In this document: positions 29,811 to 55,736 of the stretch, in pieces
Numbering within the stretch: the stretch's first letter is position 1
How the letters are laid out: each line of letters starts with the position of its first letter
NCBI RefSeq assembly: GCF_900109345.1
Contig: NZ_FNZN01000001.1
Span: forward strand, 193,883 to 257,882
Length of the DNA stretch: 64,000 nucleotides
Source: Maribacter orientalis
GTDB taxonomy: Bacteria > Bacteroidota > Bacteroidia > Flavobacteriales > Flavobacteriaceae
Direction of reading: 5' to 3'
The notes under the pieces: generated by a model
Database searches by the model: none
What the model was told of the DNA's origin: nothing
The model's input: only the letters and a program-made list of their open reading frames with translations
Made by a program: the position numbers and the translations under genes

Positions 29811-29966
29811 TTATGATTTGAATGTTTTTGCATTTAGAATGAAACGATGAAAATTGTTTTAAAATTTACTATCAGATTCTTTATGGATAGGTGCATCCCT
29901 TCACGATTTCTTACCTTGAAAATAACTTATTACTTCAAAGCTATTTGAAATAATGAACGTGATTTA

Positions 29967-29978
29967 TGATAATAGTCA
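29967..29978 (-). promoter_or_regulatory. FNR-like box upstream of UbiB/MgtC genes
   Basis: TGATAATAGTCA as written on the plus strand. On the minus strand, exactly 23 bp later, comes TAGCTTTG (29936-29943), a perfect TANNTTTG -7 element. Confidence 0.72.
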
Positions 29979-30308
29979 TATTTCATAGTTTGTAACTGAA
30001 TTTGCGAATTTTAGGTTAATTTGTAATGATGTCTTTTAATTGTTATCACATTTTTTATGAATTGTCACAGCATCTGAAAAGCCGAATGGCATCTTTTAAA
30101 AGCATAAGAAAACTAAAGTGATGAATGATATCTTTCTAATTGAAACCCTGATCGCTACCCTAACTTAGTACACGCATCACTTCAATAAAATAAAGCTAAA
30201 AGGGGTGGGTGATTATAGATAAGTAGATTCAAAGATTGGCTAGTCTTAATCAAATTTTAAATCTGTAATATATGTACTATTACTTCTTTGGTTAAAATTT
30301 AGTAGATA

Positions 30309-30320
30309 TGATTTTACTCA
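30309..30320 (+). promoter_or_regulatory. Weaker FNR-like box upstream of the ABC export operon
   Basis: TGATTTTACTCA matches TGA-N6-TCA but not the ATCA/GTCA form of the other boxes. After exactly 23 bp comes TTATTTTG (30344-30351), 7/8 to TANNTTTG. The start codon is 52 bp beyond the box. Confidence 0.4.
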
Positions 30321-30372
30321 TAGTATTACTTGAGATTTTAAATTTATTTTGAAGGTTCACAATCTATATTTT

Positions 30373-31455
30373 ATGCAAAATTTGAAAATTAGTATTCTTT
30401 TCTTGCTTTGCCTTTCTTGTAACCAAGAACGGGAAAAAATTTTCCCTCAAAGAACGAAGTTAACATCCTCGGTATATGCATCTGCAACGATACAGCCAGA
30501 TAGTTTGTATCAAGTTTTTGCTGTTGTTGCTGGTATTCTTGATGATAATTTAGTGGAAGAAGGAGATCTGGTAGAAAAAGGAGATGCCATTCTACAGATT
30601 AATAATCGTGCACCTAAATTAAATGCTGAAAATGCCTATTTATCATTGCAACAATCTAAGGAAAATGTGCAAGGCAATGCCGCCATACTAAAGGATATTG
30701 AAGATGAAATTTATGCAACAAGGTTAAGATTCAAGAATGATTCTATCAATTTTAGTAGACAAAAGCGGCTTTGGGAACAAAATATAGGATCTAAGGCAGA
30801 ATTTGATGCTAGAAAGTTGGCGTATGAGCTTTCAGAAAATCAGCTAAAACAACAGAATGCAAAATATGTTCGAACCAAATACGATTTGGAAACAAAAATG
30901 GCCCAAGCTAAAAACAGCTATTCTTCCTCAAAAATAATCACTGATGATTACACGGTAAACAGCAAAATTAAAGGAAGGGTATATGCCCTATTTAAAGAGC
31001 CTGGTGAACTTGTAAATACCTTAGAACCATTAGGTACAATAGGTAGTGCCACTAACTTTAAAATAGTAATGCTAATAGATGAGGTAGATATCATTAAGAT
31101 AAAAATAGACCAGCTTACACTTATAACTTTAGATGCTTACCCTAAAGAAGTATTTACCGCAAAGGTGAGCAAAATATACCCTCAAAAAGATGAACGTTCA
31201 CAGACTTTTACAATTGAAGCACGCTTTACAGAATCCCCTGCTATATTATACCCCGGGTTAGCTGGTGAGGGTAATATTGTAATTGCGGAAAAAGAAGATG
31301 CACTTACCATTCCCATAGAATATTTAATAGAGGGCGATAAAGTAGAAACAGAAGAAGGTTTAGTAAATGTTGAGGTAGGCTTTCAAAATTTAGAAAGGGT
31401 AGAGATTGTTTCAGGTATAACAGAGAATACATTGCTATTAAAGCCAAAAGAATGA
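30373..31455 (+). CDS. HlyD/MFP-type periplasmic adaptor lipoprotein of an ABC exporter
   Basis: The ATG at 30373 is chosen because it starts a lipoprotein signal (MQNLKISILFLLCLSC); the earlier in-frame TTG at 30349 would only add residues before it. The 360-residue protein shows the split lipoyl/hairpin plan of membrane-fusion proteins: VEEGDLVEKGDAILQIN, a long Gln/Lys-rich coiled coil (about residues 70-185), and KIKGRVYALFKEPGELV. It would bridge the ABC permease to an outer-membrane channel. The next gene overlaps it by 4 bp (ATGA). Confidence 0.82.
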   Translation: MQNLKISILFLLCLSCNQEREKIFPQRTKLTSSVYASATIQPDSLYQVFAVVAGILDDNLVEEGDLVEKGDAILQINNRAPKLNAENAYLSLQQSKENVQGNAAILKDIEDEIYATRLRFKNDSINFSRQKRLWEQNIGSKAEFDARKLAYELSENQLKQQNAKYVRTKYDLETKMAQAKNSYSSSKIITDDYTVNSKIKGRVYALFKEPGELVNTLEPLGTIGSATNFKIVMLIDEVDIIKIKIDQLTLITLDAYPKEVFTAKVSKIYPQKDERSQTFTIEARFTESPAILYPGLAGEGNIVIAEKEDALTIPIEYLIEGDKVETEEGLVNVEVGFQNLERVEIVSGITENTLLLKPKE

Positions 31456-32714
31456 TAAACTGGAGGGTCATACTGAATATAGCAAAAACACATCTTCTTA
31501 CTAAGATGAAATCTACTGCTACCGCATCTTTAGGTGTCACTTTTGGTATAGGTGCCTACATAACCATGGTTAGTTTTATGACAGGTTTAAATAATATGTT
31601 AGATAGTCTTATTTTAAACCAAACTCCCCATATTCATCTATATAATGAAATAGAGCCAACCGTTAATCAACCAATTTCGTTATTTGAAGGTTTCGAGAAT
31701 TCAGTATATATGATAAGCTCTATAAAACCTAAGCAAGGGCAAAAGAAAATTCATAATGCCCTACCTATTCTCAACTATTTAAAAAAAAAGGATAATGTAA
31801 AGGGGGCGACACCACAAGTACGGGCACAAATATTTTACCTATCTGGTGCCATTGACTTAGGTGGTACATTGATTGGGGTAGATATTATGGAAGAGACCAG
31901 ATTATCGAATATGCGAGACTATATTGTCGATGGTACCCCTGAAGCATTGAAAAGTACCGATAATGGTATTTTATTAGGGTCTGGGCTAGCAAGTAAAATG
32001 TCATTATCTGTAGGTGAGAGAGTCCAAATAAGCACCGTGAAAGGCGGTATTTTTCCTTTGAAAATCGTCGGTATTTATCAAAGCGGAATTGCAGATATTG
32101 ATAATGTACAAAGCTTCTGTAATTTAAAAACAGTACAACAAATATTAGGAGAGGCACAAAATTACGTCACCGATATCAATATTAAACTTAATGCAATAGA
32201 AGATGCCCCTGCCATGGCTAAAATATTAGAAAAACAATTTGATGTAACCGCTACGGATATTAATGAAGCGAATGCCCAATTCGAAACAGGTACAAATATT
32301 CGAAATTTAATAACATACGCAGTTTCCATAACATTGCTAATTGTTGCAGGATTTGGAATTTATAATATTCTAAATATGCTCATTTATGAAAAAATGAAAG
32401 ATATCGCTATTTTGAAAGCAACCGGATTTTCAGGCCGAGATGTGCAGTTCATTTTTATGAGTCAAGCCATGATAATTGGTATTGTGGGTGGAATCTTAGG
32501 ATTGATTTTAGGATTTGTACTTTCTGTAATTATTGATGGAGTTCCTTTTGAGACAGAAGCACTACCAACAATTACAACGTATCCCGTTAATTTCAGTGTA
32601 GGCTATTATGTAATAGGAATTGTCTTTGCCTTACTGTCAACCTTTATTGCTGGATGGCTACCCTCTAATAAAGCTAGGCGTATAGATCCGGTAAAAATTA
32701 TTAGAGGTACTTAA
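31452..32714 (+). CDS. MacB/LolC-type ABC transporter permease
   Basis: A 420-residue protein with one N-terminal helix, a large extracytoplasmic domain (about residues 45-275) and three helices near the C-terminus, the FtsX/MacB topology. IYEKMKDIAILKATGFSGRDVQFIFMSQ is the coupling segment seen in this family. The final segment PSNKARRIDPVKIIRGT is typical. It partners with the adaptor (4-bp overlap) and the ATPase (5-bp gap) in a tripartite efflux or lipoprotein-handling system; substrate unknown. Confidence 0.85.
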   Translation: MINWRVILNIAKTHLLTKMKSTATASLGVTFGIGAYITMVSFMTGLNNMLDSLILNQTPHIHLYNEIEPTVNQPISLFEGFENSVYMISSIKPKQGQKKIHNALPILNYLKKKDNVKGATPQVRAQIFYLSGAIDLGGTLIGVDIMEETRLSNMRDYIVDGTPEALKSTDNGILLGSGLASKMSLSVGERVQISTVKGGIFPLKIVGIYQSGIADIDNVQSFCNLKTVQQILGEAQNYVTDINIKLNAIEDAPAMAKILEKQFDVTATDINEANAQFETGTNIRNLITYAVSITLLIVAGFGIYNILNMLIYEKMKDIAILKATGFSGRDVQFIFMSQAMIIGIVGGILGLILGFVLSVIIDGVPFETEALPTITTYPVNFSVGYYVIGIVFALLSTFIAGWLPSNKARRIDPVKIIRGT

Positions 32715-32725
32715 GAGAATTGAAA

Positions 32726-37473: not shown

Positions 37474-38112
37474 TTAATCAACTTGTGAGGTGAAAATTAA
37501 ATCTTGCTCTTCCAAAGTTGAAATGATTAATTTTATATAGTCTTTAATGGCTTTTTCAACATTATTTGGGTCAGCGATATCAATAACTCCTCTCCATATC
37601 ATAGCTCTTTCTTTACCCTCGCAAATGCAGTATAAAGTAGTTTCAGCATGATATACGGTAAATTTTTCATAATACTCATCATCATAGTAAATACCTTGAT
37701 GTTCTAAATAGTCGTCATTAAAACGAGATTGATGATCATCCCAGCGAGAAATAGATTTCATGAAGTTTTCACGATTTTCAGAACCTGTAACTTTAGTCAA
37801 TAAAATTGCATCAAAATCTTTGTCCAAAAGACTTTGTTCAACTTCATCTAATTCTTTCTCGGTTTTTCTTGAATCAGTTAGTGATAAATCGAAAACATCA
37901 ATACTACGCCATGCCTCGACATTTCGATTTGTGAATTCTTTTTTCAGTTGACTTTCAAAATCTTCTCTAGTTTCTTCACTTTGCGTCATACCCACCAATA
38001 AAACCTTGTTGGCATTGAATATAACTATATCTGGGTTCTTCCAATTTTCTACTAAACTTATAGAAGAGCAACCCATTAATAAAAATGAGAATACTATGAA
38101 TATCTTTTTCAT
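37474..38112 (-). CDS. Uncharacterised lipoprotein in the FNR-like regulon
   Basis: The ATG ending at 38112 gives a lipoprotein signal (MKKIFIVFSFLLMGCSS) and 212 residues; an earlier in-frame start adds ten residues. The mature part is mixed alpha/beta, with KVLLVGMTQSEETREDFESQ and DFDAILLTKVTGSENR, somewhat like the DUF4136-type lipoproteins, but I do not recognise it firmly. It has the best promoter of the set: box TGATAATGGTCA with TAACTTTG 23 bp away, so it is probably induced with the stress proteins. Confidence 0.6.
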   Translation of the reverse strand: MKKIFIVFSFLLMGCSSISLVENWKNPDIVIFNANKVLLVGMTQSEETREDFESQLKKEFTNRNVEAWRSIDVFDLSLTDSRKTEKELDEVEQSLLDKDFDAILLTKVTGSENRENFMKSISRWDDHQSRFNDDYLEHQGIYYDDEYYEKFTVYHAETTLYCICEGKERAMIWRGVIDIADPNNVEKAIKDYIKLIISTLEEQDLIFTSQVD

Positions 38113-38170
38113 GCTACTGGTATTTTTAATAATATAAAACAAAGTTATGATTTAGAAAATATCATGCATA

Positions 38171-38182
38171 TGATAATGGTCA
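38171..38182 (-). promoter_or_regulatory. FNR-like box upstream of the lipoprotein gene
   Basis: TGATAATGGTCA on the plus strand (TGACCATTATCA in gene direction). Exactly 23 bp on, TAACTTTG (38140-38147) is a perfect TANNTTTG element; the start codon is 28 bp beyond it. Confidence 0.75.
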
Positions 38183-41115: not shown

Positions 41116-41955
41116 TTAGTGAAGTGCCAATATGGGCACTTTACTATCATAGCCAATTTCTTTTACAAGTGGTCTTGAAAATACACTACCAAAAAATAGA
41201 TGTTTACGATTAATAAAAGCGACCATATCACTATTTCTACTTTCAACAAAAGTTTGTATTCCTTTTCCCAAGTGACTTTCAGAAAGTGTATGGAAACTAT
41301 AATTAACCTCGGTTAAAATGGTTTTAAGCAACTGCTGATTCTTTAGCTGATTTTCAGAAAGTTCTTTCTTTTTATTTAGGTATAAGATGGCGATTTCAGC
41401 GTTGTGCATCTTTGCTATTTCTAAAAGATAATTTAGTTCTGCTCTTTTAAAGGTGTCCTTATAATCTGTTGGAAAAACTATTTCTTTAGGAGCTTTAAAT
41501 GAAATATTTTCTGGTATTGCTAAAACAGGACACTCTCTTATTTTTTCCATAGCCAATACCGTGTTGCTGCCAAAAAGCACACCTTTTGACCCTGTAGCTC
41601 CTTTTGTACCCATGGCAACTAATTCAATATCTTTTTCCGCTATCAATTTTTTGATGGCTTCAGATAAGAAATTGTATGTAGATTTAGTATAATAATTGTG
41701 TTTAGGGTTTTCGTTATGCAATGCAATGCTATCTAATAATTTCACAAAATTCTTTTCAGAAGCTGCTTTTGCCAGTTCAAATTCAGCGCTTCCTTTTTCA
41801 GGAATGTTTAAACTATTGGTTGTATATTTTTCAAAATTAAATACATTCAAAAAATAGAAATCACAATTTAATTTAGCATACAAATCAATGGTATAACGAA
41901 TGGCATTCAAAGCATTCTTGGAAAAATCTGTTGGTATAAGAATACGCTTATTCAT
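41116..41955 (-). CDS. Universal stress protein, tandem-domain (copy 1)
   Basis: Two UspA-like domains in one chain, about 279 residues from the ATG ending at 41955. The first domain carries the nucleotide-binding motif GTKGATGSKGVLFGSNT. The second (from about residue 150: KEIVFPTDYKDTFKRAEL) lacks it, so only the first half is expected to bind ATP. The box TGATAAATATCA lies upstream. It is the first gene of an operon with the release-factor-like gene. Confidence 0.9.
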   Translation of the reverse strand: MNKRILIPTDFSKNALNAIRYTIDLYAKLNCDFYFLNVFNFEKYTTNSLNIPEKGSAEFELAKAASEKNFVKLLDSIALHNENPKHNYYTKSTYNFLSEAIKKLIAEKDIELVAMGTKGATGSKGVLFGSNTVLAMEKIRECPVLAIPENISFKAPKEIVFPTDYKDTFKRAELNYLLEIAKMHNAEIAILYLNKKKELSENQLKNQQLLKTILTEVNYSFHTLSESHLGKGIQTFVESRNSDMVAFINRKHLFFGSVFSRPLVKEIGYDSKVPILALH

Positions 41956-41964
41956 AGTTAACAT

Positions 41965-42310
41965 AATTAGATTGTTGGTTAAATATATATTTCAATCAAA
42001 TAAATAACTATGATAAATATCAGTCATGAATAAGCACAATTTAATAGGGTATGGTAATCCATAAATACTTAACCATATCAATCGGTCCGTGCAATGGCCT
42101 ATCAAAAAAGTTTTTTTGTGATAATAGGCCATTGCAAACATTTTTTATCTTATTGAATTAAAAAATCTTGAATAACATGGACCTTATTGGCATAATTCCG
42201 TAAATCATGAAAACTGTGTTGCGTTTTTACTGATATTTTTTCAATAATTTATTATTTGAAATCTTAATTGAGTCCATTATTTCTTCTTCGGTGATAAAGG
42301 TAATTTTGTC
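41965..42310. other. Gene-free stretch with the promoter of USP copy 1
   Basis: Contains the FNR-like box 42011-42022 and -7 element TATATTTA (41980-41987). Beyond it, up to the decayed USP fragment, nothing coding was recognised. Confidence 0.5.
42011..42022 (-). promoter_or_regulatory. FNR-like box upstream of USP copy 1
   Basis: TGATAAATATCA, a perfect TGATA-N2-TATCA palindrome. TATATTTA follows on the minus strand after exactly 23 bp. Confidence 0.82.
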
Positions 42311-42760: not shown

Positions 42761-43597
42761 TTATAATTGTGGTATTACCATTAAAGGAATGGTAACATGA
42801 AAACTAATTTTCTTTATAATTGGTTCAATGAATAAACGCTCAAGAAAAGTATGTTTGTTTTGAACCATGACTAACATATTTATCTTTTGCTTTACTTGAA
42901 ACTCATTTATTGCGGCAATAATTTCATTGCTGGAAACTTCATGAAACAAGGCATTTTTCGTCAAAATCTTTGCTAGTTTTTCTTTATTTTTTTGTTGTAC
43001 AGGGTTAAGTTCTTCACCCGTAAAAACATGCATAACATTTACTTGAGATACATGTGTATTCACAATCTTCAATAGCTGTGATAAACTGTTTTTGTCTAAC
43101 TCGATTTCAAAGTCGTTTGGAAAAAGTATCTGTTCTGGCACTTCATAATCAAAGCCAGAAGGAACAACTAAAACAGGACATTTAGCATTTTTGATTACGT
43201 GTACAGTATTGGTGCCAAATAATATTTCTTTTGCCCCAGTTGCGCCTTGTGTACCCATAATTACTATATCGATATCTTCAGCTTCAACAGTTCTGGTAAC
43301 TTCACTAGAAAGTACGTTTAATGCAGAGTGAGTTATAAAAGTGTGTAAAGGATTTTCAAAATCCTTTAGCAGTTTTTTCTTTAAATCTTTAAGATCATTC
43401 ATAGAATTCTCTTTAACGATGTCTCCTAGACCAATTTGAGCAGGACTACCCATTAGGTATTCTGTATAGTAAACAGGTGGCATGTAGCAATTCAAAAGAT
43501 AGAAAGTGCATTTTATATCCTGATACAACGTTAGTCCGTAACGAATTGCAGTTAAGGAGTTTTCAGAAAAATCTGTAGGTAATAAAATACGTGTCAT
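42761..43597 (-). CDS. Universal stress protein, tandem-domain (copy 2)
   Basis: A 278-residue two-domain USP. First-domain ATP motif GTQGATGAKEILFGTNT; second domain begins near PEQILFPNDFEIELD. It diverges from the thioredoxin gene, and the 112 bp between their start codons hold one FNR-like box. The second half ends with the conserved segment LERLFIEPIIKKISFH also seen in the other copies. Confidence 0.9.
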   Translation of the reverse strand: MTRILLPTDFSENSLTAIRYGLTLYQDIKCTFYLLNCYMPPVYYTEYLMGSPAQIGLGDIVKENSMNDLKDLKKKLLKDFENPLHTFITHSALNVLSSEVTRTVEAEDIDIVIMGTQGATGAKEILFGTNTVHVIKNAKCPVLVVPSGFDYEVPEQILFPNDFEIELDKNSLSQLLKIVNTHVSQVNVMHVFTGEELNPVQQKNKEKLAKILTKNALFHEVSSNEIIAAINEFQVKQKINMLVMVQNKHTFLERLFIEPIIKKISFHVTIPLMVIPQL

Positions 43598-43648: not shown

Positions 43649-43660
43649 TGATATTCGTCA
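43649..43660. promoter_or_regulatory. FNR-like box shared by USP copy 2 and thioredoxin
   Basis: TGATATTCGTCA. Toward thioredoxin TATTATTA (43684-43691) lies 23 bp away; toward USP copy 2 TAATTTCA (43618-43625) lies 23 bp away. The -7 matches are weaker than elsewhere. About 50 bp to each start codon. Confidence 0.65.
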
Positions 43661-43709: not shown

Positions 43710-44009
43710 ATGAAAAAGAGTTTCAAAAAAAATATAGGTTCAGATATTCCTTCGTTAGTCCATTTTTATGCAAATTGGTGCACCCCATGCAAATTAATGA
43801 CACCAATTCTTGAACAAATTGAAGAGGAAATGGGAGAAAGTCTAAACGTGGTAGAAATAGATGTTGAAGCCAAAAAAAAGCTTGCTCGCAGATATAAAAT
43901 CAAAAGTTTGCCTACACTATTGATATTTAAAAATGGGGAGCCACTATGGCGACAATCTGGCATGATACAAAAAGACGATATCAAAAAAGCCATAATTGAA
44001 TTTACCTAA
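43710..44009 (+). CDS. Thioredoxin (WCTPC type)
   Basis: Start set at the ATG at 43710 (99 residues); an earlier ATG at 43617 would put the FNR-like box inside the coding region. The active site is WCTPCK (Cys24, Cys27), a variant of the usual WCGPC. The cis-Pro segment IKSLPTLLIFKNGE is normal. No signal peptide, so cytoplasmic disulfide reduction. Surrounded by universal stress protein genes, it fits redox defence of the same regulon. Confidence 0.88.
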   Translation: MKKSFKKNIGSDIPSLVHFYANWCTPCKLMTPILEQIEEEMGESLNVVEIDVEAKKKLARRYKIKSLPTLLIFKNGEPLWRQSGMIQKDDIKKAIIEFT

Positions 44010-44052: not shown

Positions 44053-44895
44053 TTATGATTCGTGAATAACGAGAAATGGTACTTTAGTGTGATAACTTAT
44101 TTTTTCTACTGTAGGTCTAAAGAGAATACGTTCTAAGAAATTAAGGTTTTTAGCAACCATAACCAACATATCTAGATTTCTACTCTCTGTAAAACACTGA
44201 ATTGATTCATCGATTTTCTTACCGGTAACCACATGAAATGAACATTCAATATCTTTATAATGTTCCATTAAAATTCTTTTGTTGTTTTCTTGAATAGGGC
44301 TCAATTTTTCATTGTTAAGCGACACATAAAGTAAACGTAAGGTAGATTTTTTAAGCAATAAAATATCTTTTAGAGTTTCTAAAATTTTATGGTCATACGT
44401 TAATTGAAAATCTGATGGGAAGCCTATTTCCTTAATGCCAGAATAAACGGCGTGTTCAGGTACAGCTAAAATAGTGCAAGGTACTTTTGTGATTACATCA
44501 CCGGTATTGCTACCAATAGACACCGATTTTAGACCAGTAGAACCTTTGGTACCCATAATAATTAGGTCAATTTTTTTTTCTTTGACTTGTGTTTTTATAT
44601 GGTCGGTTAAAAAACCATAGAGTGCAATAGGTTTAAACTCATGTTTTACATTTAAGGGTAAATGTTCTATTTTACTCATTAGCTTGTTAAGCTTCTCTTT
44701 ACTTTCTACCAATATACTTTCTTCTAAAATATCTGGTGATAGAAACATAGCGGTTTCTCCACTTGTATTGGTGTTAACAGAATTTACATGAACAATATAA
44801 AAGGCACAGTGTGTTTTTTTGAAAAACGAAATTCCATAAAGTAAAGCATTCCATGCGTTTTCTGAAAAATCAGTAGGGATTAGTATGTTTTTCAT
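44053..44895 (-). CDS. Universal stress protein, tandem-domain (copy 3)
   Basis: A 280-residue two-domain USP with GTKGSTGLKSVSIGSNT in the first domain and a second domain from about KEIGFPSDFQLTYDH. It is the last gene of a three-gene USP operon (copies 5, 4, 3 in transcription order), 37 bp after copy 4. Confidence 0.9.
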   Translation of the reverse strand: MKNILIPTDFSENAWNALLYGISFFKKTHCAFYIVHVNSVNTNTSGETAMFLSPDILEESILVESKEKLNKLMSKIEHLPLNVKHEFKPIALYGFLTDHIKTQVKEKKIDLIIMGTKGSTGLKSVSIGSNTGDVITKVPCTILAVPEHAVYSGIKEIGFPSDFQLTYDHKILETLKDILLLKKSTLRLLYVSLNNEKLSPIQENNKRILMEHYKDIECSFHVVTGKKIDESIQCFTESRNLDMLVMVAKNLNFLERILFRPTVEKISYHTKVPFLVIHES

Positions 44896-44932
44896 TATAA
44901 TGATTATTAGAAATAAAAAAATATTTTAAAAT

Positions 44933-45775
44933 TTATTGAGGTAAAAAGATTACGGGAATACTAGAATGAAAGGCTATTTTTTTAATTACGGCTTCTCCTA
45001 TAATTTTTTCCCAGAAGGTATGTTGATGACGAATAATACTTAGAATAGAAGAATCTATATTCCCAGCATATGCATCTATACTATGAGATATATTTATTTC
45101 AAATGGTACATTTTTAAATTGATAATCTAATCCTGCAAATCTTTCCTTTAATGTGGTCTTGTTAGTATTTTGGGTATCGTTCAAATTAAATTCTATGGCC
45201 ACATGAACAATTTCAATTTGAGCTTTCCAAAGTTTGGCAAGTTCTATGATTGTGTTTAATTCGTTTTTTTTGAAGGGTTTAGTGAAATCTGTAGCGAAAA
45301 TTATAGTTTGTAGTTTTTGAAAATTGAAACCACCCGGTATGGCAAAAATTGGAATGTTTTTTACAGTTTTTAATACTTTAACTGTATTACTTCCTAAGAA
45401 AACCTCTTTAGCACCTGTAGCCCCTTGTGTACCCATCATTAATACATCAATATCATTCTGGCGAACTATATTCTTGACAGCTTCTTCTAAAGTCTCTGAT
45501 TTGGATACCGTGGTAAATTTATGCTTAGGGTTTTTATGGTTAATCTCAAAATACCTGAGCATTTCTTCTAATTCTTGTTCAGAATGCTTTGAAAGTGAAT
45601 CATAAATTACACCTAACCGTTGTTGGCTTTTAGTTCCTAATAGGTTTAATGTTGAAGGCTCATAAGCATGCAATAGGTAAAAATGGCAATCTACATCTGC
45701 ATATATTTTTAAAGCTGTAAAAATTGCATTCCAGGCATTTTCTGAAAAATCTGTTGTTAATACTATCTTCTTCAT
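44933..45775 (-). CDS. Universal stress protein, tandem-domain (copy 4)
   Basis: A 280-residue two-domain USP with GTQGATGAKEVFLGSNT in the first domain; the second domain begins near LQTIIFATDFTKPFKK. Middle gene of the operon, 17 bp after copy 5, with no promoter of its own visible. The copies differ greatly outside the motifs, so the array is old. Confidence 0.9.
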   Translation of the reverse strand: MKKIVLTTDFSENAWNAIFTALKIYADVDCHFYLLHAYEPSTLNLLGTKSQQRLGVIYDSLSKHSEQELEEMLRYFEINHKNPKHKFTTVSKSETLEEAVKNIVRQNDIDVLMMGTQGATGAKEVFLGSNTVKVLKTVKNIPIFAIPGGFNFQKLQTIIFATDFTKPFKKNELNTIIELAKLWKAQIEIVHVAIEFNLNDTQNTNKTTLKERFAGLDYQFKNVPFEINISHSIDAYAGNIDSSILSIIRHQHTFWEKIIGEAVIKKIAFHSSIPVIFLPQ

Positions 45776-45792
45776 TTGATTTTTTTTTAAGA

Positions 45793-46638
45793 TTACCTTG
45801 GTAAATTTTGCATTACTAAAAATGGAACAGTAGGTGTTAGTCCGATTTCATCAATCGTAGAACGGTATAGCATATCTTCTAAAAATGAATGTCTAGAATT
45901 AACCATAACCAAAAGATCTATATCATTATCTTTAATATAGGTCATAATAGCTTTTGCTCTATTCTCTACAGGCTTTATAACAAACGATAGTTTAGCGTTA
46001 GGTAGTGATTCTTTTAAAAACTTCTTATTATCTGATTGTCTTAAACTTAAATCTTCAAAATCAGATATATACAAGCTGAATATTTGTGCTTTAAATTGTG
46101 CTGCCAACGTATCTAAAAGTTGAAGTTCTCTTCTTTTATAAGGTAACATATAGTCGCTAGGAAAAAGAATCTTTTTTGGTTGACTGTATTCGTACCCGTC
46201 TGGAATTGCTAAAACCGGACACTTCACATATTTAAATACTTGAATTGTATTACTACCGAACGTTATTTTAGAGTTTGCGGTTTTACCTTTTGTGCCCATA
46301 ATCATGAGGTCAATATTTTTGATGTTCACAAAATTATTGACAGCATCTACCAATGATTCAAAAGATGTGATCGCCTCGTAATGATGTTTAGGATTTTGGG
46401 TTCGCTCTTTAATTTCCTTTACAAGCTTGCTTAATTCATTTTCAGAACTTTTTTCAATGGCTTGTTTTTCGTCCTCAAAAGCGTCATTATTTTCATTATG
46501 AAAAGGGCCATATACTTCATCTGCATAAGCATGAATAAAATAAAAATTCGTACGCTCATATTTAAAAAGTTGTAAAGCATACGAAATAGCATGATTTGCA
46601 TTACTTGAAAAATCGGTAGGAATTAAAATATGTTTCAT
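45793..46638 (-). CDS. Universal stress protein, tandem-domain (copy 5)
   Basis: A 281-residue two-domain USP. Its first-domain motif is altered (GTKGKTANSKITFGSNT), so nucleotide binding is less certain than in the other copies. Second domain from about KKILFPSDYMLPYKR. First gene of the three-gene operon, 49 bp downstream of the box TGATATTTATCA. Confidence 0.9.
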   Translation of the reverse strand: MKHILIPTDFSSNANHAISYALQLFKYERTNFYFIHAYADEVYGPFHNENNDAFEDEKQAIEKSSENELSKLVKEIKERTQNPKHHYEAITSFESLVDAVNNFVNIKNIDLMIMGTKGKTANSKITFGSNTIQVFKYVKCPVLAIPDGYEYSQPKKILFPSDYMLPYKRRELQLLDTLAAQFKAQIFSLYISDFEDLSLRQSDNKKFLKESLPNAKLSFVIKPVENRAKAIMTYIKDNDIDLLVMVNSRHSFLEDMLYRSTIDEIGLTPTVPFLVMQNLPR

Positions 46639-46686: not shown

Positions 46687-46698
46687 TGATATTTATCA
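46687..46698 (-). promoter_or_regulatory. FNR-like box upstream of the USP 5-4-3 operon
   Basis: TGATATTTATCA, a perfect TGATA-N2-TATCA palindrome. In gene direction, 23 bp later comes TACTTTTA (46656-46663). Confidence 0.82.
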
Positions 46699-46733: not shown

Positions 46734-47783
46734 TTAGGTAACATATTTAAGAACCTTAAGTTCTTTTATACGTATGTTTCTACCTTCAATTTCAATAAGC
46801 CCTTCCTTTTTAAAGCCAGAAAGTGTTCTAATTAAACTTTCGGTAGCGATACCTGCAACACTGGCTAGATCGGCACGAGATATTCTAATAGGCTCAGAGG
46901 CATCATTATTCATGATTTCGGCAAATTGCAATAAGGTTTGCGCTGTTTTTTTGCGAACCGAACTATATGCCATTTGTAAAAGTTGATGTTTAATGTCTGA
47001 AATATTATCAGATAAAAGAGCCATTAACTCTAAGGGAATAGTATGGTTTTCAGAAACAATTTGTAGTAATTGCTCTTTAGAAATAGAAGCTAGTTCTACT
47101 GGTTCTAAGGCTGTAGCGGTTTCTTGATTTACAACATTATTCATCAATGAGGTAAAACCTAAAAAATCATCGGCATGATATAAAGAGGTGATAAGTTCTT
47201 TACCATCTTGATCCATGGTATGGCATTTTACGACACCTTTTAAAATAAGATATACATTGGTAGAACGTATACCTTCTTGGTAAATGGTATTTCCTTCATT
47301 TATTTTAATTACTTCGCCATTATCGTCAAAGTAATTTTTAAGTTGATTAAGGTTCCCGATTTCATCAGGGTCGTCAACTTGTTCTTTTTTATTGACGTTA
47401 ATATCGTGAAGTAATTTAGCTTTAGCCATTCGGCTTTCAATGGCACTTATTAATTCTTCTTCTTCAAAAGGTTTGGTTAGATAATCATCGGCACCAAGGT
47501 CCATTCCTTTTCGAATAGATTTATGTTCTGTAATCGCTGAAAGAAAAATAAATGGAATATGTAAGGTACTTTCTTCGCTCGATAGTGCCTCTAAAACACC
47601 ATAGCCATCAACTTCGGGCATCATAATATCACAAACAATTAAATCGGGTAGTTTTTCTATTGCACTTGCTATTCCAATTTTACCATTTGCTGCAGTAAAA
47701 ACTTGATAACCAGAAATTTCTAAAAGTTCTTCTGTGTTCTCTCGTAAAATTTTATCATCTTCAATTAATAAAATAGTCTTCAT
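46734..47783 (-). CDS. Response regulator fused to a Crp/Fnr domain
   Basis: A 349-residue protein with three parts: a receiver domain (Asp9, Asp10, phospho-acceptor Asp52 in VCDIMMPEVDG, Lys104), a cyclic-nucleotide-binding-like barrel (about 150-265), and a Crp-type helix-turn-helix (about 290-345). The recognition helix carries Glu315 and Arg319 at the places used by Crp and Fnr to read the TGA half-site. No cysteine set for an iron-sulfur cluster is present, so control is expected through phosphorylation. Its ATG overlaps the stop of the kinase gene by one base. It is the prime candidate to bind the TGAT-N4-ATCA boxes of the region. Confidence 0.9.
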   Translation of the reverse strand: MKTILLIEDDKILRENTEELLEISGYQVFTAANGKIGIASAIEKLPDLIVCDIMMPEVDGYGVLEALSSEESTLHIPFIFLSAITEHKSIRKGMDLGADDYLTKPFEEEELISAIESRMAKAKLLHDINVNKKEQVDDPDEIGNLNQLKNYFDDNGEVIKINEGNTIYQEGIRSTNVYLILKGVVKCHTMDQDGKELITSLYHADDFLGFTSLMNNVVNQETATALEPVELASISKEQLLQIVSENHTIPLELMALLSDNISDIKHQLLQMAYSSVRKKTAQTLLQFAEIMNNDASEPIRISRADLASVAGIATESLIRTLSGFKKEGLIEIEGRNIRIKELKVLKYVT

Positions 47784-48934
47784 TAATAATTGGTTTTTAT
47801 ATTTTTTGGAATATGAATTATAAACGTAGAGCCTATATTTTCTTTACTTTCAAATGTGAGTGTTGCACCCAAATTTTCAAGGTGTTGCTTGGCTATATTT
47901 AAACCTATGCCTGTACCTTGGTTCAATAATGCATTTTCAGCCCTAAAATAACGATCAAAAATATACTTCTGCTGTTCTTCGGGTATACCTAATCCTTGAT
48001 CTATAACTTCTAAGATCAAAAATTCTTTTTCAATTGTGAAAAGTATTTTAATGGTAGAATCTTCTGGAGAATATTTAATGGCATTTTGGAGTAAATTAGA
48101 CAATGCCAAGGCTAAGGTTTTCTCATCAAATTTTATCACTACTTCATCTATATTGTCCGGGTAACGAATTTGCTGTGCGGTTTTAAGAAGCATGTTAGCA
48201 TCGTAAACTACCTCGTTAATTACTCTACTTAGGGGAAAATCTTCAACTGCATAATTTACTTTACCCAATTCTAAACGTTCTACAGATAGAAAATCGTTAA
48301 GAATTGTATCTAACTGTCGAACCTTAGATTTTATAGTTTCTACGTGTTGGTCACGTTTTTCTTGTTGATCGGTTTCTTTATATTTTGAGAGCAAGGTTGC
48401 AGAGGTGAGTATACTACTAAGAGGAGTTTTAAACTCATGGGAAACCAAAGACAAAAACCGCGTTTTAAGCTCATTGAGCTCTTTTTCCTTTTCTAGTGCA
48501 TCTGTCAATTGTTTGGTACGTTCTTGAACAGTTTGTTCGAGATTTTGTGTGTAATTTTTACGATCTGTAATGTCGGTAACCAATGCCATTACATACCTAT
48601 TACCATATAATACGAAAGGGTTTAAACCAGCCTCAACAGGAAATTCTACCCCATTTTTTCTAAGGCCACTTAAATCGAGACCATTACCCATTTTTCTTTT
48701 TTCACTTTTCTCCATAAAACTAGAAAAATGATCTGAATGTTTATTGTGGAATCTTTTAGGTATTATGCAGTCTAATGATTTACCAATGAGTCCGTCTTTA
48801 TCATAACCAAACATTTCTTCGGCAGAAGAATTGGTAGCTACAATTTCTTGTTTCGTATTTACGAGAATTATACCCTCAGAAATTCCTTCTGATAATAGAT
48901 TGAAAATATTACTATTTTTTTCAAAAACATTCAT
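47783..48934 (-). CDS. PAS-domain histidine kinase
   Basis: A 383-residue cytoplasmic-looking kinase with no membrane helix: a PAS domain (about 10-125), coiled coil, HisKA with His166 in SLVSHEFKTPLSS, and an HATPase domain with NLLQNAIKYSP, DQGLGIPE and GTGIGLNIAKQ. In the PAS domain His66 (PKRFHNKHSDHF) aligns with the haem-binding His of FixL, but that His is common in PAS domains and the distal Arg is not evident. The signal is therefore open: oxygen, redox or a small molecule. It is coupled with the fused Crp regulator. Confidence 0.9.
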   Translation of the reverse strand: MNVFEKNSNIFNLLSEGISEGIILVNTKQEIVATNSSAEEMFGYDKDGLIGKSLDCIIPKRFHNKHSDHFSSFMEKSEKRKMGNGLDLSGLRKNGVEFPVEAGLNPFVLYGNRYVMALVTDITDRKNYTQNLEQTVQERTKQLTDALEKEKELNELKTRFLSLVSHEFKTPLSSILTSATLLSKYKETDQQEKRDQHVETIKSKVRQLDTILNDFLSVERLELGKVNYAVEDFPLSRVINEVVYDANMLLKTAQQIRYPDNIDEVVIKFDEKTLALALSNLLQNAIKYSPEDSTIKILFTIEKEFLILEVIDQGLGIPEEQQKYIFDRYFRAENALLNQGTGIGLNIAKQHLENLGATLTFESKENIGSTFIIHIPKNIKTNY

Positions 48935-48954: not shown

Positions 48955-48966
48955 TGATAATTATCA
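48955..48966 (+). promoter_or_regulatory. FNR-like box upstream of the TerB-like gene
   Basis: TGATAATTATCA, a perfect palindrome. 23 bp later TAATTTTT (48990-48997) precedes the TerB-like gene. The box is only 20 bp before the kinase start codon on the other strand, where it could act as a repressor site. Confidence 0.78.
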
Positions 48967-49024: not shown

Positions 49025-49426
49025 ATGTTAAACTCACAAAAATTTGGTATCGAGCTTTATGAGAATTTAGGAAAGTTATTCTATGCCATGGCTAGTACAG
49101 ATGGCACTGTACATACAAAAGAAGTTGATCATTTACGATCCTACATTCGTAGTTATTGGTTAGATATTGATGCTATTGAAGATGAATATGGTTCAGATGC
49201 CGCATTTAGAATCGAAACTACATTTGACTGGTGTTTGGAGTATGAGAAAGAAGCTAAGGATTGTTTTAAACAATTTAAGGAGTTTTATAAGGAACATGTA
49301 AAGATGTTTACACCTGATATAAAAAGGTTGACTTTAGATACAGCCACAGCAATGGCAAACGCCTTTGCAGGTAAAAATAAGGCCGAGTTGATACTTCTTT
49401 CAAAAATTGAAATTTTATTCAGATAA
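49025..49426 (+). CDS. TerB-like small protein
   Basis: A 133-residue all-helical protein. GKLFYAMASTDGTVHTKEVDHLRSYI resembles the acidic metal-binding helix-loop of TerB/DjlA-like domains, in which an xADGxxxxxE loop is typical. No membrane segment. It diverges from the kinase gene and has the best palindromic box of the region upstream, so it is likely activated by the fused Crp regulator. Cellular role unknown. Confidence 0.55.
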   Translation: MLNSQKFGIELYENLGKLFYAMASTDGTVHTKEVDHLRSYIRSYWLDIDAIEDEYGSDAAFRIETTFDWCLEYEKEAKDCFKQFKEFYKEHVKMFTPDIKRLTLDTATAMANAFAGKNKAELILLSKIEILFR

Positions 49427-49461: not shown

Positions 49462-49473
49462 TGATTTGGGTCA
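49462..49473 (+). promoter_or_regulatory. FNR-like box upstream of the WG-repeat gene
   Basis: TGATTTGGGTCA; 23 bp later TACTTTGG (49497-49504), a slightly displaced TANNTTTG. About 55 bp to the start codon. Confidence 0.6.
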
Positions 49474-49528: not shown

Positions 49529-50155
49529 ATGAAAAAAAGAATATTTCTATGGGTATTCACCATATTGGTGGCATTACCCATATCGGCACAAGTATTACAA
49601 AATATTGATGAAATAGCTCCTTTTAGTGAAGGCTTGGCAGCGGTACGTAAAGGTCAACAATGGGGTTTCATTAACGAAGAGGGCAAACTGGTCATTGAAT
49701 TTAGAGATGACATTTATACAAGCCCAAAAGTTGACGTAACTAAAACAGACGTGTTAAGTGTAAAATACCCAATGTTTAATGAAGGTTTGTGCCTTATTAA
49801 GAATACCGTAGAGGATGGGGTGCCTGTATTTGGTTTCATTGATAAAACTGGAGCTGTGGTTATAAAACCTCAGTTTTTAAATGTTTTCCCCTTTAAAAAT
49901 GGGTTTACTACCGCCGTGCTTTTCGATAAAACTTTTAAGGGGGAAAATGAATTTAAGTTAAAGATTTATGAGTACAAATTTTTTGATGTCCGTTTAAATA
50001 CGGCGGGTGAGATAACAGATTATTTTGAAAAAAGAGACCATATACAAATGACGATTAAGCGTTATGAAATGCCTGAAATCGGAGCTAAAATTATAAGTGA
50101 AAATTTGGTAGCCACTCAAAAGGCAGGAAAAGGTTGGTCAATTAACAAATTGTAA
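49529..50155 (+). CDS. Secreted WG-repeat protein
   Basis: A 208-residue protein with a Sec signal peptide (cleavage near PISAQ). Two WG-type repeats are visible: FSEGLAAVRKGQQWGFINEEGKLVIEF and FNEGLCLIKN...FGFIDKTGAVVIKPQF. These form beta-rich folds of unknown function, often in envelope proteins. It is followed after 17 bp by an SDR gene and probably shares its FNR-like promoter. Confidence 0.82.
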   Translation: MKKRIFLWVFTILVALPISAQVLQNIDEIAPFSEGLAAVRKGQQWGFINEEGKLVIEFRDDIYTSPKVDVTKTDVLSVKYPMFNEGLCLIKNTVEDGVPVFGFIDKTGAVVIKPQFLNVFPFKNGFTTAVLFDKTFKGENEFKLKIYEYKFFDVRLNTAGEITDYFEKRDHIQMTIKRYEMPEIGAKIISENLVATQKAGKGWSINKL

Positions 50156-50958: not shown

Positions 50959-51012
50959 AATACAAGACTTGAATATATGAATGATATCATTCATATATTC
51001 AAGTCTTGTATT
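50959..51012. repeat. 54-bp perfect palindrome between SDR and UPRT genes
   Basis: Bases 50959-50985 are the exact reverse complement of 50986-51012. The centre reads GAATGATATCATTC and the outer part TACAAGACTTG. There is no loop base. It could act as a two-way terminator hairpin, or as a strong protein-binding or cruciform site. It starts 25 bases after the SDR stop codon and ends 34 bases before the UPRT start. Confidence 0.95.
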
Positions 51013-51712: not shown

Positions 51713-54214
51713 CTAATTTTTAGAGCGTTTTACCAATTTTACAAATTCATACCATAGTACCGAGGCACCACCCGCTAATAAAGATATACCCAATTGATTA
51801 ATGGATAAACTTTCAAATTCAAGAAAGTGTGTAAAAGCCGGAATATATAGTAAAAGTAGTGAAAGTGTTAGGGTGATTCCAATGATTAAAGGAACCAAGG
51901 GATTCTTGTAATTTAGGGTGGTGAAAATGGAATAATAAAAAGAACGATTGACTAAGGTTAGAAAGATATTTGCAAATATCAAAACCATAAATACCATTGT
52001 TCTAGTGATACTTTCTGAAAAACCGACAGCAACCGAATATTGATATACAAATAGAGCCCCTAATGTTATAAATATACCTTGTATAATACTAGTAGCCAAT
52101 TCTTTGTAGTTAAAAAAAGTTGTAGAAAATGGTCTGGGTTTTTTGAACATCAAATTCCTTTCTAAAGGTTCATTTTCAAATATGATAGAACATGTTGGTC
52201 CCATAATCAATTCGAGTATGATGACATGAGAGGGCGAGAATATATTCGGATAGATCCATCGTAAGGCTAACGGTATAAACACGGTAAGAATTATTGGAAT
52301 GTGAATAGAAATAATATACTGAATAGCCTTTTTTAAATTGGTGTAAATTTTTCTACCCATAGCAATAGCATCTACCATTTTAGAGAGATCATCATCTACT
52401 AAAATTAGAGATGCTGCCTGTTTCGCTATCTCGGTTCCTTTTTTTCCCATGGCAATGCCAATATGAGAAGCTTTTAATGCGGGTCCGTCATTGACACCAT
52501 CGCCGGTCATGGCAACTACTTCGTTATTTTTCTTAAGCGCATTTACAATTCGCAATTTTGCATCGGGGAACATCCTGGAGAAAACATTAATATTTTTTAC
52601 TTTCTCTTGTAATTCTACATCTGTTAGTTGCATTAATTCATCGCCCGAAATACATTTTTCATAACCTTTAAAATTGATTTGTTTAGCAATGGCCATAGCT
52701 GTACTGGCATTGTCTCCTGTAACCAGTTTTACCTGAATACCCGCACTTTCAAATTCTTTAAGTACTTGAGAAATGTTTTCTTTTGGCGGGTCGTAAAATG
52801 CAACGATACCTTTAAAATCAAATTTTAAATCTTGTTGTTGTTTGGGGTATTCTTTTCCCGTAAAATTGCCTTTGCCCACCGCTAATAATCTATAACCTTC
52901 TTTTCCTAAATTTAAAATAGTTTCTTGCAGTATCTCTATTTCCGAAGGAGTCAGGTCAGATACTGCAATTATAGCTTCAGGAGCACCCTTGGCGGCTACG
53001 ATTAGTTCGCCAGTTGAATTTTCAAAGAGATGGGTCATCATGGGCGGTTTACCACCTAATGGGTATTCATGAACCATCTTATAGTTTGGACGCTCATCGT
53101 TAAGTGATATTTTGCCATAGGCATTATGGAGGGCAATTTCCATTGGGTCAAAAGGTATAGGTTCACTGGACCACATAGCCATAGTAACTAAATCCTTTTC
53201 TTTGGTTTCTAAATTTTCATCGGCATTTATTACTTGTCCCGTTTCTAAGGTGAAAAGTTTGGCCAAGGCCATTTTGTTTTGGGTAATGGTACCGGTTTTA
53301 TCAGTACAGATAACTGTTGCGCTACCTAATGTTTCTACCGTTTTTATTTGCTTTACAACTATTCCCATTTTCATAAGTCGCCAAGCACCTAAAGCCATAA
53401 AAGTGGTAAATGCAACAGGAATTTCTTCAGGAAGAATACTCATAGCTAAGGTAAGGGCCTGTAATAGACTGTCTAGTATTACTCCTGAACGCAGATAGTT
53501 AATAGTCCATACCAACAAAAATATAGCGCCTCCCCAAAAAGACATCAATTTTACGAAGTTGAAAATTTTTAGTTCTAATGGAGTTTTTTCTTCGGTAATT
53601 CCCTCAAGGCTTTTTCCTATTTTTCCAAGTTTCGTTAAATTTCCAATAGCGGTAATTTGTGCGATGGCTAATCCGCTAGCGACCGTACTTCCTGTAAAAA
53701 TTGAATTATCTGAACTAGAAAAGTCTTTATAAATGGAAAGCGATTCTCCTGTTAAAACGGATTCATTAACCGAAAAATCATTTGAGTGTACAATGGTTCC
53801 ATCGGCAGAGATGGTGGTACCTTCTTCTACCATAAGATAATCACCAACAACTATGTCTTGACTATTAATTTCAACAATCGCACCATTACGGATCACCTTA
53901 CTTTTTGGATGTGTTAGATTTTTAAGGTTTTCTAACGCTTTTCTACTTCTAGAATCTTGATATAGTGATATAGATCCTACAAGAATAATGGCAGAAGCTA
54001 AAAAAATACCATCTCCCCAATTACCGGTTATGAAATATATAGAGGAGGCAACTAGTAATAATAGAACCATGGGTTCTTTAGCGATGCTTTTAAGGGCATC
54101 TAAAAAGCTATTTTCTTTTTTATAATTGAAGGTGTTTGAGCCATATTTTTCTCGTGAAATACTAACTTCTTTATCCGTAAGACCAGTTATTCCGAAATCT
54201 TTTGGGCTATTCAT
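51713..54214 (-). CDS. Cation-transporting P-type ATPase (P2-like)
   Basis: An 833-residue P-type ATPase: actuator motif LTGES, phosphorylation site CTDKTGT, TGDGVNDGPALK, and membrane helix 4 with ILPEEIPVA. PEEIP differs from the PEGLP of classical calcium pumps, but overall size and helix count (about ten) match P2-type pumps. Transported ion uncertain (Ca2+, Mn2+ or other). A TGATATGAACCA sequence upstream lacks the standard -7 spacing, so regulation by the box system is doubtful. Confidence 0.88.
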   Translation of the reverse strand: MNSPKDFGITGLTDKEVSISREKYGSNTFNYKKENSFLDALKSIAKEPMVLLLLVASSIYFITGNWGDGIFLASAIILVGSISLYQDSRSRKALENLKNLTHPKSKVIRNGAIVEINSQDIVVGDYLMVEEGTTISADGTIVHSNDFSVNESVLTGESLSIYKDFSSSDNSIFTGSTVASGLAIAQITAIGNLTKLGKIGKSLEGITEEKTPLELKIFNFVKLMSFWGGAIFLLVWTINYLRSGVILDSLLQALTLAMSILPEEIPVAFTTFMALGAWRLMKMGIVVKQIKTVETLGSATVICTDKTGTITQNKMALAKLFTLETGQVINADENLETKEKDLVTMAMWSSEPIPFDPMEIALHNAYGKISLNDERPNYKMVHEYPLGGKPPMMTHLFENSTGELIVAAKGAPEAIIAVSDLTPSEIEILQETILNLGKEGYRLLAVGKGNFTGKEYPKQQQDLKFDFKGIVAFYDPPKENISQVLKEFESAGIQVKLVTGDNASTAMAIAKQINFKGYEKCISGDELMQLTDVELQEKVKNINVFSRMFPDAKLRIVNALKKNNEVVAMTGDGVNDGPALKASHIGIAMGKKGTEIAKQAASLILVDDDLSKMVDAIAMGRKIYTNLKKAIQYIISIHIPIILTVFIPLALRWIYPNIFSPSHVIILELIMGPTCSIIFENEPLERNLMFKKPRPFSTTFFNYKELATSIIQGIFITLGALFVYQYSVAVGFSESITRTMVFMVLIFANIFLTLVNRSFYYSIFTTLNYKNPLVPLIIGITLTLSLLLLYIPAFTHFLEFESLSINQLGISLLAGGASVLWYEFVKLVKRSKN

Positions 54215-54296: not shown

Positions 54297-54308
54297 TGAT
54301 ATTTATCA
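54297..54308 (+). promoter_or_regulatory. FNR-like box upstream of the sigma-like gene
   Basis: TGATATTTATCA, a perfect palindrome identical to 46687-46698. 23 bp later CACTTTTA (54332-54339); 61 bp to the start codon. Confidence 0.78.
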
Positions 54309-54369
54309 TATTAATTACACGAATAAGGTTGCACTTTTATACTGGTATTAATCCTTTAAGTTTAGAATT

Positions 54370-55128: not shown

Positions 55129-55140
55129 ATTATAATAAAA

Positions 55141-55171
55141 ATGCTTTCATTAAACAATGAGAGCATTTTTA
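55141..55171 (+). terminator. Terminator after the sigma-like gene
   Basis: ATGCTTTCATT (55141-55151), AAAC loop, AATGAGAGCAT (55156-55166), one G-T pair, then TTTTT. Confidence 0.8.
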
Positions 55172-55205
55172 TAGTTTAAGTTGTTTTTATTTTTAGGACT
55201 AAATC

Positions 55206-55667
55206 CTAATAATCGTTTTTTCGAAACTTTCCGGTTATTTCAGAGATATTGATACGAAATACAATGGGTATATCTTCAGCATCAATTTTAGCGGAAAACT
55301 CGCTTATGTATTTTGGATGCTCACCGTAGTTGTTTTTAATAACTTTCTTTACTCCCTCAGAAAACTCATGAAGCATATATTTTGCATCAATGCGTGAGAG
55401 TTCTTCAAAAGTACCTTGTACGAGTACCGACTTCCAATTCGAGATAGAAGCTATCTCGTCAATGGCTAAACAAACGGCAGTATTTTTTCTCATCTCCCGA
55501 ATTTTATGACCTTCAGAAGAATAACTAGTAATACTATTGGTCTCAGAATCATAGAAATAAGTAATGGGAACAATATGTGGACATCCTCCTGAAATATAAG
55601 CTAGTCGCCCTATGTAGTTATGTTCAAGGAGTGCTGTACATTCCTTTTCATCCAAATTTCTTCTCAT
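55206..55667 (-). CDS. Pyridoxamine 5'-phosphate oxidase-like flavin protein
   Basis: Start set at the ATG ending at 55667 (153 residues; MRRNLDEKECTALLEHNYIGRLAYISG). The split-barrel fold with CPHIVPITYFYD, HKIREMRKNTAVCLAID and SWKSVLVQGTFEEL fits the FMN-binding pyridoxamine-phosphate oxidase-like family, as in many DosR/stress regulons. Its box TGATATTGGTCA with TATATTTA 23 bp on shows that it belongs to the regulon. Confidence 0.85.
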   Translation of the reverse strand: MRRNLDEKECTALLEHNYIGRLAYISGGCPHIVPITYFYDSETNSITSYSSEGHKIREMRKNTAVCLAIDEIASISNWKSVLVQGTFEELSRIDAKYMLHEFSEGVKKVIKNNYGEHPKYISEFSAKIDAEDIPIVFRINISEITGKFRKNDY

Positions 55668-55724
55668 GACTTTTTTTATGTTTAATAATTCGATAAATAT
55701 ATAAATCATTGAAGTAGTGGCATA

Positions 55725-55736
55725 TGATATTGGTCA
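55725..55736 (-). promoter_or_regulatory. FNR-like box upstream of the flavin-protein gene
   Basis: TGATATTGGTCA on the plus strand (TGACCAATATCA in gene direction), 23 bp before TATATTTA (55694-55701). Confidence 0.75.

Follow-up and report, generated by a model that had tools for sequence, protein, structure and literature searches.

A cluster of stress genes with boxed promoters

The window, i.e., the 64-kb stretch of DNA analysed here (C17:193883-257882 of the 4.16-Mb genome of Maribacter orientalis), carries genes for universal stress proteins (USPs), a thioredoxin, a TerB-like protein, a cation ATPase and a flavin protein. Together with these it encodes a PAS histidine kinase and a regulator, REC-Crp, in which a receiver domain is fused to Crp-type domains (Table 1). 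The subject of this report is a short inverted repeat in the promoters of these genes and the regulators which may read it. The original prediction, made from the sequence alone, had listed nine boxes of the form TGAT-N4-RTCA and a weaker site at 30309; all ten were confirmed at their coordinates. It further held that a -7 element starts exactly 23 bp after each box. For every box the octamer at this distance was read on both strands and its mismatches against TANNTTTG were counted. A perfect TANNTTTG follows on one strand at two of the ten boxes (29967, 38171) and an octamer with one mismatch at seven (42011, 46687, 48955, 49462, 55725, 30309, and 54297 on the minus strand). The rule stands for nine boxes with at most one mismatch and holds least well at 43649, the only one of the ten with two mismatches on either strand. 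Both 43649 and 30309 are weak.

The window contains 18 strand matches to TGAT-N4-RTCA against 5.3 expected, palindromic boxes counting twice, and none of 100 shuffles reached 18. Five other such boxes (1054, 6715, 20170, 33484, 34637) have octamers with 2-6 mismatches at 23 bp. Two of them, 33484 and 34637, fall inside the 29.9-55.7 kb interval, and the single value of 2 belongs to 34637 on the minus strand.

Table 1. Boxes, -7 elements and genes of the window (positions are those of the window)
Feature	Coordinates	Strand	Remarks
Box TGACTATTATCA	29967..29978	-	UbiB/MgtC promoter; TAGCTTTG at 23 bp; exact match to the genome-wide pattern
-7 element TAGCTTTG	29936..29943	-	belongs to the 29967 box
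Weak box TGATTTTACTCA	30309..30320	+	upstream of HlyD/FtsX/ABC genes; TTATTTTG at 23 bp, 1 mismatch
Box TGACCATTATCA	38171..38182	-	promoter of lipoprotein gene 37474-38142; TAACTTTG at 23 bp
Box TGATATTTATCA	42011..42022	-	promoter of USP 41116-41964; TATATTTA at 23 bp
Box common to USP 42761-43597 (-) and thioredoxin 43710-44009 (+)	43649..43660	.	TAATTTCA (-), TATTATTA (+), both 2 mismatches
Box TGATAAATATCA	46687..46698	-	promoter of USP 45793-46638, with USPs 44933 and 44053 behind; TACTTTTA at 23 bp
Box TGATAATTATCA	48955..48966	+	promoter of TerB-like gene 49025-49426; TAATTTTT at 23 bp
Box TGATTTGGGTCA	49462..49473	+	promoter of WG-repeat gene 49529-50155; TACTTTGG at 23 bp
Box fitting P-type ATPase gene 51713-54214 better than sigma-like gene	54297..54308	-	TAATTTAG (-), 1 mismatch; CACTTTTA (+), 2 mismatches
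Box TGACCAATATCA	55725..55736	-	promoter of PNPOx-like gene 55206-55709; TATATTTA at 23 bp
MgtC/DUF4010 gene, after UbiB gene	26841-28115		PF02308
UbiB/ABC1 kinase-like gene	28134..29810	-	PF03109
Lipoprotein-like gene	37474..38142	-	no Pfam match
Universal stress protein	41116..41964	-	PF00582
Universal stress protein	42761..43597	-	PF00582
Thioredoxin	43710..44009	+	PF00085
Three USP genes (44053-44895, 44933-45775, 45793-46638)	44053..46638	-	PF00582
REC-Crp fusion regulator	46734..47783	-	Response_reg + cNMP_binding + HTH_Crp_2
PAS histidine kinase	47783..48934	-	gene end = start of REC-Crp gene
TerB-like gene	49025..49426	+	divergent from kinase; no Pfam match, name from the original prediction
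WG-repeat protein	49529..50155	+	PF14903
P-type cation ATPase	51713..54214	-	PF00122, PF00689
PNPOx-like flavin protein	55206..55709	-	PF12900

Five USP genes had been claimed as controlled. Three have their own box; the other two sit 17 and 37 bp behind a USP gene and would be co-transcribed. The sigma-like gene had been named as the target at 54297, an assignment which we revise in favour of the ATPase gene on account of the mismatches; in orthologous-like places the layout is present on the ATPase side in 2/5 and on the sigma-like side in 1/5. The 48955 box also adjoins the start (48934) of the kinase gene. At 55725 the -7 element overlaps the 5' end of the open reading frame (ORF), so that the true start of the PNPOx-like gene probably lies inside it. 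The octamer of the 29967 box ends 126 bp before the UbiB start, farther than at most other sites, and the single orthologous-like place available has no box; the 30309 layout is kept in 2/10 such places. A gene on C10 similar to the lipoprotein-like one (36% identity) also has a box.

The 23-bp spacing in genome, family and phylum

The exact layout was defined as TGAYN4RTCA-N23-TANNTTT, the pattern read backwards serving as control. In the window it occurs six times at a gap of 23, and each of the remaining gaps between 8 and 38 has one match or none; 200 simulated windows gave a mean of 0.03 and a maximum of 1. A genome-wide scan against a control had been set beforehand as the refuting test; it returned 76 exact sites versus 2 for the control. 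On the shuffles, the simulated windows and the genome control, chance or base composition is rejected as the source of the layout. The statement that the layout is absent outside 29.9-55.7 kb is correct within the window and wrong for the genome, which has 70 more exact sites.

Sixty-five of the 76 sites lie in five clusters (C10 414-438 kb, C11 270-326 kb, C17 104-169 kb, C17 224-250 kb, which is that of the window, and C17 278-316 kb). Together these span 210 kb or 5.0% of the genome, the cluster limits having been drawn after the sites were seen. In the stretches fetched around the genome, 60 of 68 exact sites are located at most 150 bp before the start of a same-strand ORF, as called with a simple script, and 1 of 68 inside an ORF; the median distance from the -7 element to the start codon is 26.5 bp. 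The same pattern at other gaps gave 24/35 before an ORF start and 3/35 inside an ORF, and placement is thus a weaker argument than spacing. In the fetched stretches the broader form TGAN6TCA plus TANNTTT yields 70 matches at 23 bp, and no other gap between 5 and 41 exceeds 5; this histogram is biased towards 23 because these stretches were partly chosen around earlier matches. Free of this bias are the 76-versus-2 scan, the window scan, the scans of 120 and 148 genomes reported below, and the scan of the whole genome with the full TANNTTTG, in which 7 of 17 matches with gaps of 8-38 have a gap of 23.

The sigma-A element TAnnTTTG of Flavobacterium psychrophilum occupies positions -12 to -5, as described in PMC9723704. 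With a gap of 23 bp the box consequently spans -47 to -36 and is centred at -41.5. In Escherichia coli this is the class II activator position. Thus, from the fixed distance and the start sites mapped in F. psychrophilum, the box centre is placed at the class II position, as had been proposed. The class II promoters of E. coli FNR and CRP resemble this arrangement in having a TGA..TCA inverted repeat, whose centre precedes the -10/-7 element by 29.5 bp as counted to the first base of the latter, and one activator dimer per promoter. They differ in that here the promoter is of the Bacteroidota sigma-A type (TANNTTTG) and the box reads TGAY-N4-RTCA, preceded mostly by C or A, not T. Judging from 80 REC-Crp loci, the box is followed by a T-rich sequence which resembles a weak -33 element.

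These 80 named loci (1.59 Mb; Maribacter, Arenibacter, Aquimarina, Winogradskyella and others) come from other genomes and were picked by their REC-Crp gene, not by sites. They contain 391 sites at 23 bp, compared with 2-20 for any single other gap between 8 and 38, and every one of the 80 has at least one site at 23 bp. In 120 Flavobacteriaceae genomes, our own included, the exact layout was found 1,892 times versus 140 for the control. Across 148 genomes of the phylum, counts are high within the family, and the two further genomes of the order have 12 and 13 sites. Other members of the class range from 1 to 20 (control 0-2); beyond the class most genomes have 0-3 and none has more than 7 (control 0-4). 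Phylum-wide use of the layout is rejected by these low counts. As a minor feature, the REC-Crp loci show a small excess of TANNTTTG at 24-25 bp.

Orthologous-like promoters were compared with the 23-bp gap kept and the -7 element loosened to TA...T. The layout is retained before the TerB-like gene in 61/63, USP3-like in 83/92, USP5-like in 37/43, the WG-repeat gene in 12/16 and PNPOx in 8/13. Among the USP groups compared here and below, USP1-like corresponds to the 42011 box, USP2-like to the 43649 box and USP5-like to the 46687 box. Box-less genes of the window give a different picture in their orthologous-like places: beta-CASP 0/26, short-chain dehydrogenase (SDR) 0/10, ATP-cone 1/30. Upstream of the REC-Crp gene itself the layout is present in 0/81.

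Three candidate regulators with one recognition helix

The genome has four matches to HTH_Crp_2. Three of the proteins, REC-Crp 46734-47783, a second REC-Crp (C11:298478-299551; open frame, 41% identical to that of the window) and Fnr (C17:315182-315877), have the recognition helix ATE[S/T]xIR in common. The fourth Crp/Fnr protein (C17:301830-302462) has a different one. It adjoins rhodanese/metallo-beta-lactamase genes, and the four exact sites at C17:300906-312239 all read TGAC-N4-GTCA.

In REC-Crp 46734-47783 PF00027 and PF13545 are above cut-off. D52, K104, A313, E315 and R319 are invariant in 80 orthologues, and in 78 of the 80 loci a kinase was detected beside REC-Crp. By these features REC-Crp classifies as a response regulator, with a predicted phospho-acceptor Asp (D52), a Lys (K104) and an adjacent kinase. 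CRP contacts cAMP through E72, R82 and S83. In the alignment these contacts are not kept in REC-Crp, F, Q and E taking their places, and cAMP is rejected as its ligand.

The kinase residue H166 is invariant and H66 is kept in 99% of 78 orthologues. H66 aligns with the histidine of FixL and DosP which binds the heme iron. When the kinase PAS was compared with solved structures, FixL (7.5e-12) and DosP were the next matches after the best one, and among the 14 solved sequences matched, 13 have entry names that read FixL, DosP, YddU or heme PAS sensor. Open frames of the kinase range from about 350 to more than 600 residues in the orthologues (L054-L133), as if the number of PAS domains differs, and the kinase copy on C11 matches the N-terminal PAS part twice. 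In Fnr, C7, C10, C56 and C109 are invariant in 26/26 sequences (30 of 71 Fnr genomes were used, 4/30 loci not being recovered); these cysteines probably hold an oxygen-labile iron-sulfur cluster. The layout is present upstream of fnr (C17:315119) and, for the second kinase/REC-Crp pair, at C11:294991, 336 bp from the kinase start, which in both cases suggests positive autoregulation.

The number of sites follows the presence of these regulators. With E-value cut-offs of 1e-70 (REC-Crp, either paralogue) and 1e-40 (Fnr) in the 120 genomes, the median number of sites per genome is 27 with both types (27 genomes), 16 with REC-Crp only (27 genomes), 12 with Fnr only (44 genomes) and 1.5 with neither (22 genomes). 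Treating genomes as independent, REC-Crp only (p 1.3e-7) and Fnr only (p 7.5e-7) both differ from neither, and sites per Mb are higher in REC-Crp-only than in Fnr-only genomes (p 0.004). Among 45 hand-chosen genomes of the 80 named REC-Crp loci, 19 have no Fnr orthologue. The REC-Crp loci of these 19 keep 90 sites at 23 bp, with at most 8 at other gaps from 19 to 27, and 19/19 are positive. The layout, then, does not need Fnr.

We conclude that an inverted repeat stands exactly 23 bp before TANNTTTG at dozens of promoters and that its number follows two regulator types. The view that Crp/Fnr-type sites define a stress regulon is supported. The predicted class II Crp/Fnr-type regulon is far wider than the window and has at least two candidate regulator types.

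Proposed oxygen-linked control of a survival gene set

Our preferred reading, to which we assign a probability of roughly 0.7, is that a FixL-like kinase, via REC-Crp, and Fnr converge on one class II box which controls a dormancy-type stress regulon. The boxes would be operators for Crp/Fnr-type activators at the class II position of sigma-A promoters, and Fnr as well as REC-Crp, i.e., the protein of the window and the C11 paralogue, would bind them. The PAS kinase would phosphorylate the receiver domain of REC-Crp, and the phosphorylated receiver would activate the DNA-binding Crp part to which it is fused. One box would receive the signal, low oxygen or a related redox cue, along two routes; two oxygen-type inputs are proposed because the PAS domain resembles FixL and DosP and Fnr has four invariant cysteines. 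A survival set would be switched on, comprising universal stress proteins, thioredoxin, the TerB-like protein, flavin proteins and the cation ATPase; its members outside the window would be Hsp20, a ribosome hibernation factor, PfkB, ferritin, cbb3 oxidase and HemN-like genes. The low-oxygen signal, the binding of the regulators and activation in this regulon are what we infer from sequence. For the genes of the window REC-Crp is most likely the main activator and Fnr a probable second one. The original prediction had a single activator, most likely 46734-47783, drive all promoters. A sole activator is not supported, given three proteins with the same helix and Fnr-only and REC-Crp-only genomes which both carry the layout; REC-Crp remains the best single candidate since sites are kept without an Fnr orthologue.

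Pfam, applied to a selection of the targets, supports among boxed genes universal stress proteins, thioredoxin, Hsp20, a ribosome hibernation (S30AE) protein, PfkB, BON proteins, ferritin, an ATP synthase alpha/beta subunit, a dehydrogenase E1 component, alcohol dehydrogenase, DnaJ and a radical-SAM protein (HemN by sequence reading). A box is located 231 bp from the COX1/FixO fusion of the cbb3 oxidase, and fnr also lies behind a box. Several boxed targets have no Pfam match.

A number of observations weigh against the preferred reading. The kinase/REC-Crp operon carries the 23-bp layout in only 2/80 loci. This operon faces the TerB box, and matches at 24 bp in 14 loci and at 25 bp in 7 loci are observed there. 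Footprints are weaker before USP1-like (28/59), USP2-like (22/50), USP4-like (14/60), thioredoxin (9/44) and lipoprotein (6/24) genes. The TerB-like promoter also matches at gap 29 in 21/63 with the loosened -7. Box sequence offers no usable means of telling targets of Fnr from those of REC-Crp: TGAC accounts for 24/74 boxes (32%) among the matches listed for five Fnr-only genomes and for 30% of the 391 beside REC-Crp. Some Fnr-less genomes hold other Crp proteins of about 30% identity which could also bind. G048, an 82% complete metagenome-assembled genome in which neither regulator was found, has 31 sites; given its incompleteness a gene is probably missing, or another regulator is at work. 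Three other genomes with neither regulator have 5-7 sites, and in some genomes with Fnr the sites do not exceed the control (G002 6 versus 7, G100 3 versus 3). As to the kinase, its best PAS match is 10jx (8.5e-13), a histidine kinase entry whose name gives no ligand. Where FixL has its oxygen-contacting arginine, the window kinase has Leu and 86% of orthologues have Arg. Moreover, a histidine like H66 is present in many PAS domains that may not bind heme.

A possible, if doubtful, alternative is that the promoter architecture is the same and the kinase senses a cue other than oxygen, such as redox state, a nutrient or envelope stress, which would make this a general stress regulon and not a low-oxygen one. 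The leucine in place of the FixL arginine fits this, PAS domains of this type are widespread, and USP genes respond to many stresses. Yet the names of the solved sequences matched by the PAS domain speak for heme sensors, and the same box stands before fnr and a HemN-like gene and near the cbb3 genes. It is unlikely that the local REC-Crp 46734-47783 alone drives the genes of the window while Fnr has a separate regulon. The regulator gene does sit in the middle of the cluster, REC-Crp loci keep their sites without an Fnr orthologue, and the TerB-like gene, present in 39/120 family genomes, occurs in REC-Crp genomes in 37 of 39 cases (lists compared by eye); however, Fnr shares the recognition helix with REC-Crp, genomes with Fnr alone show this layout and box too, and C11 encodes a second REC-Crp whose frame is open.

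The converse, that Fnr is the real activator of the window genes and REC-Crp does something else, we consider very improbable. The median of 12 sites in Fnr-only genomes and the layout at fnr and in the cbb3 region would agree with it, but the 90 sites of the Fnr-less loci and the higher density of sites in REC-Crp-only than in Fnr-only genomes do not. Finally, an AT-rich genome and a T-rich stretch resembling a weak -33 element might suggest that the layout arises by chance or represents a -33/-7 promoter variant which involves no regulator. We regard this as scarcely credible in view of the family-wide excess over control, counts close to control in most genomes in which no regulator of either type was detected, and the lack of a comparable peak at other gaps. 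That site number follows regulator presence likewise makes a regulator-free promoter feature unlikely.

The preferred reading, convergence of the kinase/REC-Crp route and Fnr on one box, has a known parallel. In rhizobia the cascade runs FixL-FixJ-FixK2, with a box of the TTGA/C-N6-T/GCAA type (PMC9104804). Common to both are a heme-PAS-like kinase, a receiver domain and a Crp/Fnr output. The difference is that here receiver and Crp output are in one protein, so that the transcription step from FixJ to FixK is missing; heme binding is predicted only. A more specific proposal, which at slightly less than even odds we put forward tentatively, is that a heme-PAS kinase phosphorylates a Crp/Fnr-type activator directly, i.e., FixL-FixJ-FixK condensed to two proteins, with a strictly positioned class II box in common with an iron-sulfur Fnr, and that the dormancy-like regulon run by both is contained in few islands of this genome, including a paralogous copy of the window cluster, and recurs across the family. 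Fnr itself is akin to the iron-sulfur oxygen sensor FNR by its four invariant cysteines, its Crp/Fnr domains, an ExxxR recognition helix and cbb3/HemN-like targets. Its cysteine spacing, C-x2-C-x45-C-x52-C, differs from that of E. coli FNR, and its cluster is predicted only.

DosR of Mycobacterium tuberculosis belongs to a different response regulator family and has a different box. The gene types of the M. tuberculosis hypoxia/dormancy response as given in PMC8044303 are USP, small heat-shock protein, PfkB, cation ATPase and bacterioferritin; according to one study quoted there, the pfkB-acr cluster is independent of DosR. Control of these genes (DosR regulon and others) is by a two-component system as well. 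The likeness to the mycobacterial sets is in gene content only and would thus be a case of convergence.

A search of open-licence papers found no description of the layout or of a flavobacterial REC-Crp regulator, and 'crp' is absent from the main text of PMC9723704. Judging from such searches, little has been mapped of the regulators with which flavobacteria survive low oxygen and stress, or of the genes they control. A single pattern of box, 23 bp and -7 element with little background should make much of the regulon readable from sequence in the family. It names two regulator types and offers a direct way to test the receiver-Crp fusion.

At C11:270-282 kb (L037) the window cluster recurs as a paralogous copy whose gene order is conserved (USP1', USP2', Trx', USP3', USP5', REC-Crp', kinase', TerB'), with 51-70% identity, extra USP copies and no close USP4. 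REC-Crp' (C11:278938-279969) is split by frameshifts in this assembly; the frame of kinase' is open. Nine exact 23-bp sites lie between C11:269661 and 281552, around the broken REC-Crp'. Unless the frameshifts are an artefact of the assembly, some other regulator has to read those boxes.

In the window a perfect palindrome around TGAATGATATCATTCA, at about 50968-51003 between the SDR and UPRTase genes, was read by eye; possibly it is a terminator.

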